Source: Actinomycetota bacterium
GTDB lineage: Bacteria; Actinomycetota; Acidimicrobiia; Acidimicrobiales; Poriferisodalaceae
NCBI GenBank assembly: GCA_002724355.1
Contig: PBOM01000056.1
Span: 16,696 to 56,325, forward strand
Length of the DNA stretch: 39,630 bases
Reading direction: 5' to 3'
Positions 10,081 through 32,387 of this stretch are shown here, one piece after another; position 1 is the first letter of the stretch, and each line of letters begins with the position of its first letter. Position numbers and translations under genes: made by a program. A model generated the notes under the pieces. The model saw only the letters and a program-made list of their open reading frames with translations. It did no database searches and was not told the DNA's origin.

Positions 10081-10896
10081 CTATTGGAGAGGAATCTCAA
10101 GGGAAACGACAGAAACCTCGGAACCAGCATCTGTACTGACCACAGAATGCTCACCGCTTAGCGATGCAAACCCAACATACGGAGCGGCAGTAGTTGCGCT
10201 CAGAACTTCACCAACGGGTTCAGAGGATAGAAATAGGGGCTGACCCGAGAGCAGCTCCTCATCACTGCATATTCGGTGAATTTTGTGGCGTCCACCGCCA
10301 CGAGCTGAAATTCGTTCAACCAATTCTTGACCCCTGTAGCACCCTTTGTCGAATGACACCGCTCTTTCGACTAAACCGGATTCGTTCGGGATTCCCCCTA
10401 CCTGAAGTTCCCTTCCGATTGTTGGAACGCCACATTCAAAACGAAGGCGCTCGTACTCTTGCGGATCACAGGTAGGTAGATCTATTTCTAAGGTTTCACC
10501 TAGGACATCAAACACCGCTTCAGATAGCCAGGGCGAGGCGACCACTTGAACTTGTGGTCGCAGATCTGTGGGCATCCACTCCCCCAGGACGGAAATCATT
10601 TTCCACTCGTGTAGCTCAAAGTCCGCTTGAGTTCTCAGTTTGAAACGCTCAAGCGAAACAAGAAGCGGCGACCCGAATCCAGGTTCAGTGTCTAGAAGGA
10701 ACCGGTCGTGTTGGAGCTTGGTAATTCTGAAATAGCCTTCGATGTTTCCCTTGGGCTCCAAAAGAAACGATAGGCGCGATTCCCCCTCAGACATGTCGTC
10801 AACGTTTTGCGATACCTGGCTGTGCAGGTAGCCCTCTGCTTCGGGTCCTTGAACAATGATTACATCGCGGTCGCTTGTCCAGATTTTCGTGGTCAT
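10081..10896 (-). CDS. ygfZ: Folate-binding YgfZ/GcvT-like protein
   Basis: Signature KGCYRGQELVERI, N-terminal GcvT-like fold. Confidence 0.88.
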   Translation of the reverse strand: MTTKIWTSDRDVIIVQGPEAEGYLHSQVSQNVDDMSEGESRLSFLLEPKGNIEGYFRITKLQHDRFLLDTEPGFGSPLLVSLERFKLRTQADFELHEWKMISVLGEWMPTDLRPQVQVVASPWLSEAVFDVLGETLEIDLPTCDPQEYERLRFECGVPTIGRELQVGGIPNESGLVERAVSFDKGCYRGQELVERISARGGGRHKIHRICSDEELLSGQPLFLSSEPVGEVLSATTAAPYVGFASLSGEHSVVSTDAGSEVSVVSLEIPLQ

Positions 10897-13043
10897 CGAT
10901 TTCCCGTCAACATGACTACGGCGTTGCGAACCAAACGAAGCCCGACTTCATCATCGAAAGACATAATCGATTCTGGATGAAACTGGACTCCACAAATCGG
11001 CAGACTTTCGTGTTCGACCGCCATCACCACTCCATCGTCGACGCTTCTTGCAACCACATTAAGGGAATCTGGCACGCTGTCTTCTTTTGCGTATAAAGAA
11101 TGGTATCGACCGGCCCGAAACTCTTTGGGGAGACCCTCAAACAAACCGCTCTCCTCCGCGGTGATCAGGGAAGGTTTGCCATGCATCGGTGTGTCAAGTT
11201 GCCCAAGGTGACCTCCGAAGTGCTCCACTATCGCTTGAAGACCTAGGCAGACACCAAAGATAGGAATTTCAAGGTCAATTGCCGCGTTGATAGCAGAGGA
11301 GACGTCATAATCATTCGGAGCGCCGGGACCTGGGGATAGGACCAGTAAGTTTGGTTTATGAGCGGCAAGATCTTCTAAGGGGAAACCTGTCCGCCGTGTG
11401 ACGACGTGAGCCCCGGTCTGCCTTAAGTAGTTAGCGAGGGTATGAACGAACGAGTCCATGTGGTCGACTAAAAGAACTTCTTTACCTTCTGCAGGCGAGG
11501 ACGACGCAGCGGTCTCTGTCGTTCTGCGAGGAAGTCGGAGGGCGTCGAGAAAGGCAGAGGCCTTGAGTTCCGTCTCTTCTTCTTCCGCCACGGGGTCAGA
11601 ATCCCATAGCAAGGTCGCGCCCACCCTCACCTCAGCATGACCACCTTTAATTCGTATAGTTCGCAGCGTTAAGCCTGTGTTGAGGCTGCCATCGAATCCG
11701 ACTTTGCCGATTGCGCCGCCATACCAAGCGCGGGGACTTTTCTCGTGATCTTCTAAGAACATCATTGCTGCCGTCTTGGGGGCACCTGTCACGGTTACCG
11801 CCCAAGTGTGAGTGAGAAATGCGTCCAATGCGTCAAACTCGGGGCGCAGTCTTCCTTCCACGTGGTCCACGGTGTGGATTAAACGCGAATACATTTCGAT
11901 TTGACGCCGGCCTATCACCTTGACGGAGCCGGGCACACAGATTCGACTTTTGTCGTTGCGGTCCACGTCAGTACACATGGTGAGTTCTGACTCGTCTTTT
12001 TCGGAGTTGAGTAGAGCAAGTATTTGGGAGGCGTCATCGAGTGGGTCTTGCCCTCTAGCGATCGTTCCTGAGATCGGGCAAGTTTCGACTCGGTCTCCTT
12101 CAACTCGGACATACATCTCCGGAGATGCGCCCACTAGCCACTCTGATTGTCCGAGGTTGATGAGGAAGCCATACGGAGAGGGATTCTGTTCTTTTAACCG
12201 TCGAAAGAGTTCTGAAGGGGGCTCTGGTGACGGTTCAACGAAGGTTTGACTCGAAACAACCTCAAATAGATCTCCACGCGCAAAGTACTCTCGCGCTGTC
12301 TCTACTATCTGCGCATATTCGCCTTTCTCATGATCGCGGGATGGTTCCAGTTCTAAATCCGGCTGATATAGGTCGCGAGCTCCGCCCCTGCTGATATTGG
12401 TAGTACTCAGGTCTCTGTACGCGAACTCGTATCGACGACGCTCAGCCACCCCGCCCTGGTGGTCCACAACAATAATTTCGTCGGGGATGTAAAGGACAAG
12501 ATCTCGTTGGTCTGATGGTCGTGTGAGCTTCAACTCGATGGGCTCGAACTGAAACGCCAAGTCGTATCCGAAGGCCCCGTATAGGCCCAGGTGTTCTTCA
12601 GCTCCGGTAAACAATTCGACTAAGGACCGCACAACGGTAAACGAAGACGCTTGCCGACTTCTATCTTCTTCCTCGAAACGAGCGACGCTTCGCTGTACTT
12701 CGTATGTAAGTAGCGTTGAGTTCTCTTCTATTAGCGCAACCTCTTCAAGCTCATTTAGTGCCACTCGTACCGGCACCAAGAGCATTTCACCTCGCGAGTT
12801 GAGCGCCTGAACCTGGACTATGTTGCCGCGGCTGGTCAGCACCAATGGCGGGTCCACAAATCCCATATCCCAGCGGGTGTAACGGCCTGGATACTCATAG
12901 CTTGACGAAAGTAGAACTCCCCTTGCGGAATCCAGACGATCTACCAGGTCTTCAATGGCTGCCTCAGGCTCGATAGCAGTGATTTCGACGCGTACCTCTA
13001 TATCGCCTTGGGTCTTATATTCCCGATGGAGCTCCTCAGCCAC
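10893..13043 (-). CDS. trpEG: Fused anthranilate synthase (TrpE-TrpG), single 716-aa polypeptide
   Basis: Chorismate-binding half (SPEMYVRVEGDRVETCPISGTIARG, ELTMCTDVDRNDKSRIC) followed by glutamine amidotransferase half (LSPGPGAP, FGVCLGLQ, FHPES) in one frame. Confidence 0.93.
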   Translation of the reverse strand: MAEELHREYKTQGDIEVRVEITAIEPEAAIEDLVDRLDSARGVLLSSSYEYPGRYTRWDMGFVDPPLVLTSRGNIVQVQALNSRGEMLLVPVRVALNELEEVALIEENSTLLTYEVQRSVARFEEEDRSRQASSFTVVRSLVELFTGAEEHLGLYGAFGYDLAFQFEPIELKLTRPSDQRDLVLYIPDEIIVVDHQGGVAERRRYEFAYRDLSTTNISRGGARDLYQPDLELEPSRDHEKGEYAQIVETAREYFARGDLFEVVSSQTFVEPSPEPPSELFRRLKEQNPSPYGFLINLGQSEWLVGASPEMYVRVEGDRVETCPISGTIARGQDPLDDASQILALLNSEKDESELTMCTDVDRNDKSRICVPGSVKVIGRRQIEMYSRLIHTVDHVEGRLRPEFDALDAFLTHTWAVTVTGAPKTAAMMFLEDHEKSPRAWYGGAIGKVGFDGSLNTGLTLRTIRIKGGHAEVRVGATLLWDSDPVAEEEETELKASAFLDALRLPRRTTETAASSSPAEGKEVLLVDHMDSFVHTLANYLRQTGAHVVTRRTGFPLEDLAAHKPNLLVLSPGPGAPNDYDVSSAINAAIDLEIPIFGVCLGLQAIVEHFGGHLGQLDTPMHGKPSLITAEESGLFEGLPKEFRAGRYHSLYAKEDSVPDSLNVVARSVDDGVVMAVEHESLPICGVQFHPESIMSFDDEVGLRLVRNAVVMLTGNR

Positions 13044-13058
13044 AGGGATCGCCTCTAG

Positions 13059-13412
13059 TTAGAGGTATAGGCCCGTACTACCGGGCTCAACTCTTGGGGC
13101 CGCGATCGCATGTACATCTCTTTCTCTCAGAATGAGGAAATCGTCGCCGTGCACCTCAACCTCATAACGGTCTTCTGGACTGAACAAGACCTGATCGCCT
13201 TCCTCCGCGCTGCGGACATTAGGACTAGCGCCAACCACTTCACCCCACACCAGTCTCTTTTGTTGCTGAGCCGTAGCCGGTATCAGAATCCCCCCACTAC
13301 TTCTCCGTTCAGCCTCGTCACCGGGCATGCGGACGAGGATGCGATCATGCAACATTTTGATCGGGCGCTTAAGATTTTGGTCTGTGGAGACGTCTTTAGG
13401 TTCTTCAGCCAC
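13059..13412 (-). CDS. groES: GroES/Cpn10-family co-chaperonin with C-terminal extension ending GSTGLYL
   Basis: IKMLHDRILVRMPGDEAERRSSGGILIPATAQQQKRLVWGEVVGAS...VLFSPEDRYEVEVHGDDFLILRERDVHAI Cpn10 fold; GTG start. Confidence 0.85.
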   Translation of the reverse strand: MAEEPKDVSTDQNLKRPIKMLHDRILVRMPGDEAERRSSGGILIPATAQQQKRLVWGEVVGASPNVRSAEEGDQVLFSPEDRYEVEVHGDDFLILRERDVHAIAAPRVEPGSTGLYL

Positions 13413-13436: not shown

Positions 13437-14084
13437 ATGAACCCGGACGCCGGAACACCTCAAAAAACAAATTTTACTGCTAGCGATGGGGTTTCCTTAG
13501 AAGCCGAATGCTTGATCCCTGAGTCGACTAAGGCGATCGCTGTACTCTCACACCCTCACCCCCTATACGGCGGAGACATGCACAACAACGTGGTCCAGGC
13601 ACTGTTCGAGGCCTTGCCGCAAGCATCGATAGCGACATTGAGATATAACTTCCGAGGAGTTCAAAACTCTGGTGGCAGCCACGGCGAAGGGAGACTTGAG
13701 CTCCTTGACTGCCAAGCAGCTTTTTCCCACGCAATAGATTTGGCTGGGTCTGCGCCAGTGTTCTCAGTCGGCTACTCGTTCGGAGCAGATGTCTCATTAA
13801 GCGCTGATAGCTCGAGACTTGCTGGTTGGGTCGGCATAGCTTCACCTCTTGCGTTGCTCGCTCCAAGTGAAATGAAGGCGAATTCCGACTTGCGACCCAC
13901 TCTGCTAATAGTGCCAAAAAATGACCAATATCGTTCGTTCGCAGAAGCTCAAGAGATTTCTAGCGACTGGACCGCGACAACAGTCCAGGAGCTTGCGACA
14001 GGGGACCATTTTCTTTTTGGAGAAACACAGCAGGTCACGGAACTAGTGAGTTCCTTTGTCACCGATTGCATTGCTGAACAGTGA
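13437..14084 (+). CDS. Alpha/beta hydrolase
   Basis: SHPHPLYGGDMHNNVV...LRYNFRGVQNSGGSHGEGRLELLD...GYSFGA nucleophile elbow; the upstream ORF-track extension is antisense to groES. Confidence 0.85.
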   Translation: MNPDAGTPQKTNFTASDGVSLEAECLIPESTKAIAVLSHPHPLYGGDMHNNVVQALFEALPQASIATLRYNFRGVQNSGGSHGEGRLELLDCQAAFSHAIDLAGSAPVFSVGYSFGADVSLSADSSRLAGWVGIASPLALLAPSEMKANSDLRPTLLIVPKNDQYRSFAEAQEISSDWTATTVQELATGDHFLFGETQQVTELVSSFVTDCIAEQ

Positions 14085-31856: not shown

Positions 31857-32387
31857 TCATAGGTATACGCCTCCCGGACGGGAGTCCTGTTCACTGCTAC
31901 CCGGGGGGATATCGCCGCTTGTTCCCGGCGGCAAAGCTCCTTGTCGCATCTCCATGAGTTGGCGTTGCGCCATCATCTGTTGCGCTGCTACCGCGGCTTG
32001 AATTCCATGGAACAAGCCTTCGAGCCAGCCCACAAGCTGAGCTTGCGCAACGCGCAACTCAGCTTCAGAAGGAGATTCGGAACTGAAAGGCAAAGCCAAT
32101 CTCGCCAACTCTTCGCGTAGCTCTGGGGCGAGGGCTTCAGACAACTCCGCTACCGACTGTTCATAGATTTCTCGCATGCGATCACGACTGGCTTCATCCA
32201 GTTGCGCTTCGCGCACTTCATCTAGGAGAGTTCTGATCATCGAACCAATTCGCATTACCTTCGCAGGCTCCGAGATAGCGGGAGGCTCTTCGGTGCCTTC
32301 CGGCGCGGCGTTAGGTTCGATCAATTCGACGTGCTCGTCAGCTGAAGCGTACGATCCGCCGGCAGGGTCTCGGGACTGCTCGACCAT
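31857..32387 (-). CDS. bpa: Bacterial proteasome activator Bpa/PafE
   Basis: RIGSMIRTLLDEVREAQLDEASRDRMREIYEQSVAELSEALAPELREELARLALPF...GWLEGLFHGIQAAVAAQQMMA helical bundle, C-terminus GGVYL. Confidence 0.9.
   Translation of the reverse strand: MVEQSRDPAGGSYASADEHVELIEPNAAPEGTEEPPAISEPAKVMRIGSMIRTLLDEVREAQLDEASRDRMREIYEQSVAELSEALAPELREELARLALPFSSESPSEAELRVAQAQLVGWLEGLFHGIQAAVAAQQMMAQRQLMEMRQGALPPGTSGDIPPGSSEQDSRPGGVYL

Follow-up and report, generated by a model that had tools for sequence, protein, structure and literature searches.

Bpa, the bacterial proteasome activator, was found in Mycobacterium tuberculosis by a search for proteins with an HbYX end and co-occurrence with prcBA (PMC4254994). 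In this organism the GQYL tail of Bpa contacts R26 and K52 of PrcA through its Tyr and Leu, with all seven pockets filled by seven Bpa tails (PMC11953334), the Gln at position -3 being not essential (PMC12288473). Here we describe an orphan Cpn10/GroES-like protein that ends in a tail of this type. Its host genome encodes prcA, prcB, Mpa with a GQYL end and Bpa, and the host PrcA retains RGRS and LRKVSE, the stretches that carry the Arg and Lys pocket residues. The gene lies in a window (the whole stretch of DNA analysed, 39,630 nucleotides) whose relevant features are listed below.

10893..13043, minus strand: aminodeoxychorismate/anthranilate synthase-type gene (Chorismate_bind and GATase), downstream of the orphan and co-directional
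13059..13412, minus strand: orphan Cpn10/GroES-like gene, 117 aa with a GTG start at 13412 (Pfam Cpn10, AlphaFold, PDB match)
13062..13073, minus strand: C-terminal GLYL, putative proteasome-docking motif of the HbYX/GQYL type (ortholog alignment; no binding data)
13074..13097, minus strand: linker PRVEPGST, variable in sequence, joining the last barrel strand to GLYL (ortholog linkers; low model confidence)
13197..13229, minus strand: shortened roof-hairpin region, the GroES dome (IPxT-to-GD spacing)
13263..13322, minus strand: mobile loop, with the hydrophobic tripeptide ILI at 13281-13289 (alignment)
13437..14084, plus strand: divergent alpha/beta hydrolase, a weak Hydrolase_4 match whose start is 24 bp from the orphan start
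31857..32387, minus strand: bpa, bacterial proteasome activator ending GGVYL (PF10759, 207.7 bits)

The initial annotation had called a Cpn10 with a GLYL tail at 13059-13412, and both the reading frame and the Pfam match (Cpn10, PF00166, 63.3 bits over residues 18-103, cut-off 21.1) show it to be a real gene; the Bpa that it placed in the same window is likewise genuine and ends PGGVYL. The C-terminus of the orphan reads ...LRERDVHAIAAPRVEPGSTGLYL before a TAA stop, with STGLYL as its last residues, and an in-frame stop lies 7 codons 5' of the GTG start with no ATG, GTG or TTG between them. The protein scores far under all curated GroES cut-offs of NCBIfam and is thus a divergent paralogue. 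Cpn10 was its sole match in the Pfam search, which found no BPA domain (PF10759). Two further statements of the annotation, that the mobile loop SSGGILIP is kept and that no groEL stands beside the gene, also agree with the sequence. The source MAG is 75% complete and the orphan is the only Cpn10 found there; nearly every genome of Acidimicrobiales holds two Cpn10s, one at about 100-115 bits and one at about 64-74 bits. The close named relatives of this orphan are marine Acidimicrobiales MAGs.

With the tail excluded from the tree data, the orphans form one clade apart from canonical GroES with a branch support of 100/100. AlphaFold predicts a GroES core for the single chain with a pLDDT of about 90, leaving the mobile loop and tail at low confidence, as is expected for a flexible loop in the case of the former, and the best Foldseek match of this beta-barrel in the PDB is M. 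tuberculosis Cpn10 (1p3h, E 1e-6, probability 1.00), followed by other GroES structures. Among 107 aligned orthologues G41, P45 and T47 of the mobile loop are invariant and I44 is found in 106/107; nearly all orphans carry ILI, IVI, LVI or LLI followed by P, the same type as the LVI of canonical actinobacterial GroES. The roof hairpin is 7-8 residues shorter than the canonical one, the span from IPxT to GD being 24-25 residues in 182/184 orphans vs 31-32 in 30/30 canonical GroES. A groEL neighbour was seen at 0/189 orphan loci vs 30/30 canonical loci, and no CIRCE operator was found upstream of the orphans, where the best score was 13/18 vs at least 15/18 in 29/30 canonical cases. The separate clade and the lack of groEL and CIRCE exclude a mis-annotated canonical GroES. 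Control by HAIR/HspR was also considered and dropped, with no signal above background except at one locus.

Neighbouring genes vary with lineage, being of pabB/trpE or hisI type in Acidimicrobiia and DUF3618 in several Actinomycetes. The Chorismate_bind/GATase gene lies 18-84 bp downstream of the orphan in Acidimicrobiia-type loci, with other genes there elsewhere; it is a probable operon neighbour, but we do not consider it to belong to the function. The divergent hydrolase was rejected as a conserved partner, since its 140-locus cluster turned out to be antisense-ORF noise of high-GC DNA and the true figure is 47/189. DUF3618 lies directly upstream in 29 orphan loci, often together with a divergent Bcp-type peroxiredoxin gene, and at three loci from two families clpB stands 65-236 bp upstream in the same direction. 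Several database records are odd in their own right. An apparently phage-borne homologue (MT835744.1, "Bacteriophage sp.") is probably a fragment of an actinobacterial chromosome, because the Bcp-type peroxiredoxin gene there adjoins the orphan in other actinobacteria. A 12.4-Mb record of Rhodococcus rhodnii NRRL B-16535 holds an orphan nearly identical to that of Kibdelosporangium and is probably mislabelled, and an 11.85-Mb record from Nonomuraea that is entered as a plasmid (NZ_LT559118.1) holds an unannotated orphan ending GTGLYL.

Orthologs were fetched starting with peptide seeds that omitted the tail, so that the GxYL end was not selected for. The scan of named genomes with these seeds gave 80 loci from Acidimicrobiia, Pseudonocardiales, Nocardiopsis, Nocardioides, Brevibacterium and others, and 80/80 end in G[LM]YL before the stop. 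Profile searches of 397 genomes of the phylum found the orphan in about 110, with scores of at least 97 bits and a clear gap to canonical GroES, which reached no more than 62 bits. Every orphan reading frame at the loci extracted from the surveyed genomes (189/189) ends in G[LQM]Y[LI]. After deduplication 160 remain, all with this ending: 140 GLYL, 12 GQYL, 7 GMYL and a single GLYI. Another 30 orphan loci all end GLYL (30/30). The G and Y of the tail are invariant and the L near-invariant in the 107 aligned orthologues, and the linker before it occurs as 119 distinct sequences of 8-13 residues. Under these conserved residues the codons vary synonymously, the last four positions drawing on four Gly, six Leu and both Tyr codons and on all three stops. 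One genome encodes two orphan Cpn10s, both with GLYL ends.

Canonical groEL-linked GroES had a GxYL-type end in 0/30 cases, and of the other genes called around the orphans, some 1,550 in all, Bpa was the only one with a GxY[LI] end. A chance tail is ruled out by this background together with the conservation in 160/160 distinct orphans, and the expectation that the tail would be conserved in the orphan clade and missing from groEL-linked GroES was met. The statement of the initial annotation that other actinobacterial orphans end in similar STGLYL tails proved correct as well. GQYL, the exact motif of Mpa and Bpa, is found among the orphans in two separate places far apart in the tree, family f75 and part of f23. 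Mpa carries Q at -3 wherever its end is complete, except in one Brevibacterium, and nearly all complete Mpa ends read GQYL; in Brevibacterium celere Mpa/ARC apparently ends ...NSDLL, with prcB and an orphan (GMYL) present. In Bpa tails (loci L251-L280) the residue at -3 may be Q, P, M, T, V, A, N or S and the last residue varies once. Tight covariation of position -3 between Bpa and the orphan was not seen, f75 alone having Q in both.

The orphan tracks the proteasome, as the initial annotation had proposed should be looked for. PrcB was sought by TIGR03690 in the genomes of a phylum survey and a class survey. The phylum survey gave 109 genomes with orphan and PrcB, 1 with the orphan only, 62 with PrcB only and 226 with neither, and the class survey 175, 1, 62 and 58, respectively. 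PrcB is thus encoded in 109/110 and 175/176 of the orphan-bearing genomes, and the orphan in 1/227 and 1/59 of those that are PrcB-negative. The Fisher p values (2e-51 for the phylum, 2e-26 for the class) are uncorrected for phylogeny, and the surveys overlap in some genomes. In the named-locus set 30/31 genomes have PrcB, including every tested genome of Brevibacterium, Nocardiopsis and Pseudonocardiales, and in the exception prcA lies at a contig end. The two survey exceptions are MAGs of about 230-250 contigs: G513 has Bpa without any Mpa or prcBA found, and G104 has Mpa ending GQYL with neither prcA nor prcB seen. Because both are fragmented, missing assembly is the likely cause; this is unproven, and a true prcBA-negative host is not strictly excluded. 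Four families (f77, f92, f98 and f146) contain PrcB-less genomes without the orphan and PrcB-positive relatives with it. The relation is one-way, as 62 proteasome-bearing genomes per survey, all sampled members of f91 included, lack the orphan, which must therefore be dispensable for proteasome function. One genome has divergent prcA/prcB and lacks Mpa, Bpa and the orphan. Four others have the proteasome and the orphan with no Bpa detected, while the literature states that Bpa accompanies every actinobacterial proteasome.

Comparison at the sequence level establishes a GroES-type domain in a clade of its own, with a conserved HbYX/GxYL tail on a flexible linker, a retained mobile loop and a shortened roof, in a gene that is confined to genomes with a proteasome and stands apart from groEL and HrcA/CIRCE control. 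From this we conclude that the orphan is very probably a partner of the proteasome that has so far gone undescribed. Our preferred reading, to which we give a probability of roughly 0.75, is that an ancient actinobacterial GroES paralogue has been converted to a dedicated proteasome partner, with no data at hand on binding, gate-opening, heptamer formation or phenotype. The orphan retains exactly the Tyr and Leu of GQYL that make contact, the PrcA stretches with Arg and Lys are kept as well, and the seven-fold symmetries would match, which together point to a proteasome-docking Cpn10 ring. By inference from the Cpn10 family the orphan would form a seven-membered ring, whose seven tails could enter the seven symmetry-matched pockets between PrcA subunits, the Tyr and C-terminal Leu meeting the same PrcA Arg and Lys that Bpa uses. 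Such a ring may sit on the 20S as an ATP-independent cap, open or regulate its gate and perhaps hand over unfolded clients, which might come from GroEL via the retained mobile loops. That the orphan docks on the 20S appears highly likely from comparison alone, no binding having been measured, and that it acts as a cap opening or regulating the gate is an inferred function to which we would give about even odds. The initial annotation had offered a proteasome cap or adaptor, or a link between chaperonin and proteasome. The partnership with the proteasome has gained comparative support from the tail and from the confinement to prcBA genomes, and the choice between cap and chaperonin link has not been decided; more broadly, cap, GroEL link, inhibitor and assembly factor all stay undecided as roles of the orphan.

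The conserved mobile loop gives some room to a direct bridge from GroEL to the 20S, in which the loops hold GroEL, the tails hold the 20S and misfolded clients are handed to the protease. The GroEL-contacting tripeptide and the flanking G41, P45 and T47 show the same degree of conservation as the tail, and the shortened roof would widen the axial opening, itself inferred. On the other hand, the orphan never adjoins groEL and is outside CIRCE control, a conserved loop could serve another need, and it is not established that tails and loops leave the ring on opposite faces. We regard the bridge as a tentative possibility, and its full form, a roof-reduced Cpn10 heptamer set between GroEL and PrcA as a fold-or-degrade machine, as unlikely on present evidence.

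It is also conceivable, if improbable, that the tail-docked orphan is an inhibitory plug or storage cap that blocks entry or competes with Mpa and Bpa. There is structural precedent in the chloroplast Cpn11/20/23 cap (7ekq), which represses ClpP (PMC12282863; a reference title in PMC8889267), and since this co-chaperonin cap is inhibitory, an activating role of the orphan should not be assumed. The roof hairpin of the orphan is reduced and not enlarged, however, with no hint of a plug, and HbYX-type tails are mostly gate-opening (PMC12288473, PMC11953334). HbYX-dependent assembly factors, which are known in eukaryotes and Archaea (PMC4254994), raise the possibility of a chaperone for assembly of the 20S, and the fact that the orphan tracks prcBA would fit this; but many prcBA genomes do without the orphan and the retained mobile loop would be left unexplained, so we see little chance for such a role. 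Least credible of all is a tail that has nothing to do with the proteasome, being a lineage-specific extension of an ordinary co-chaperonin whose co-occurrence reflects shared ancestry, for although the p values ignore phylogeny and both orphan and proteasome genes are old in many lineages, the invariant G and Y adjoin a hypervariable linker, the shifts to GQYL in f75 and f23 were separate, co-loss is seen inside several families and the orphan is missing in 226/227 and 58/59 PrcB-negative genomes.

In the literature searched, which left out preprints and most subscription journals, no paper described a proteasomal GroES in bacteria. The orphan family satisfies both criteria by which Bpa was discovered, an HbYX-type end and co-occurrence with prcBA. 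It was probably overlooked because M. tuberculosis was the species in which the published motif search was carried out (PMC4254994), and the sampled family f91, which we infer to be Mycobacteriaceae, lacks the gene. If our reading holds, the known bacterial proteasome partners would gain a further family, the first with a co-chaperonin fold and present in many proteasome-bearing actinobacteria, and the seven-fold 20S would acquire a symmetry-matched bacterial cap. It may also couple the folding and degradation machines, of which it offers a concrete test in bacteria.

Among described systems, Bpa/PafE (PF10759) resembles the orphan in its GxYL tail on a flexible linker, its co-occurrence with prcBA and its place outside the pup-proteasome locus. 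It differs as a four-helix bundle forming a 12-mer, of which seven of twelve tails dock (PMC11953334), whereas the orphan is a Cpn10 barrel expected to be a 7-mer and is also found in genomes without detected Bpa. Mpa/ARC shares the C-terminal tail motif, with GQYL identical in the most divergent orphans, but is an AAA+ hexamer that is Pup-dependent and encoded in the pup-proteasome locus. Canonical actinobacterial GroES (1p3h) has the same fold and a mobile loop with [IL][LV]IP; unlike the orphan it is groEL-linked and CIRCE-controlled, with a longer roof hairpin and no GxYL tail. PA26/PA28 (11S) serve as a working analogy, being heptameric ATP-independent caps that dock by C-terminal tails, without homology to the orphan and known from eukaryotes (PMC4254994). 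The chloroplast Cpn11/Cpn20/Cpn23 assembly of Chlamydomonas, a co-chaperonin ring that caps the self-compartmentalising protease ClpP, supplies the top sequence-profile match of the orphan among solved structures (a chain of 7ekq), and the 7ekq chains resemble the orphan in fold as well, but there the protease is ClpP, the ring is a repressive hetero-oligomer with tandem domains, and no GxYL tail was aligned. We accordingly rate a co-chaperonin that caps a protease as already known from chloroplasts, and a tail-docking proteasome partner built on the Cpn10 fold as new; if the latter is true, the two together suggest that Cpn10 rings have been recruited repeatedly as protease lids.
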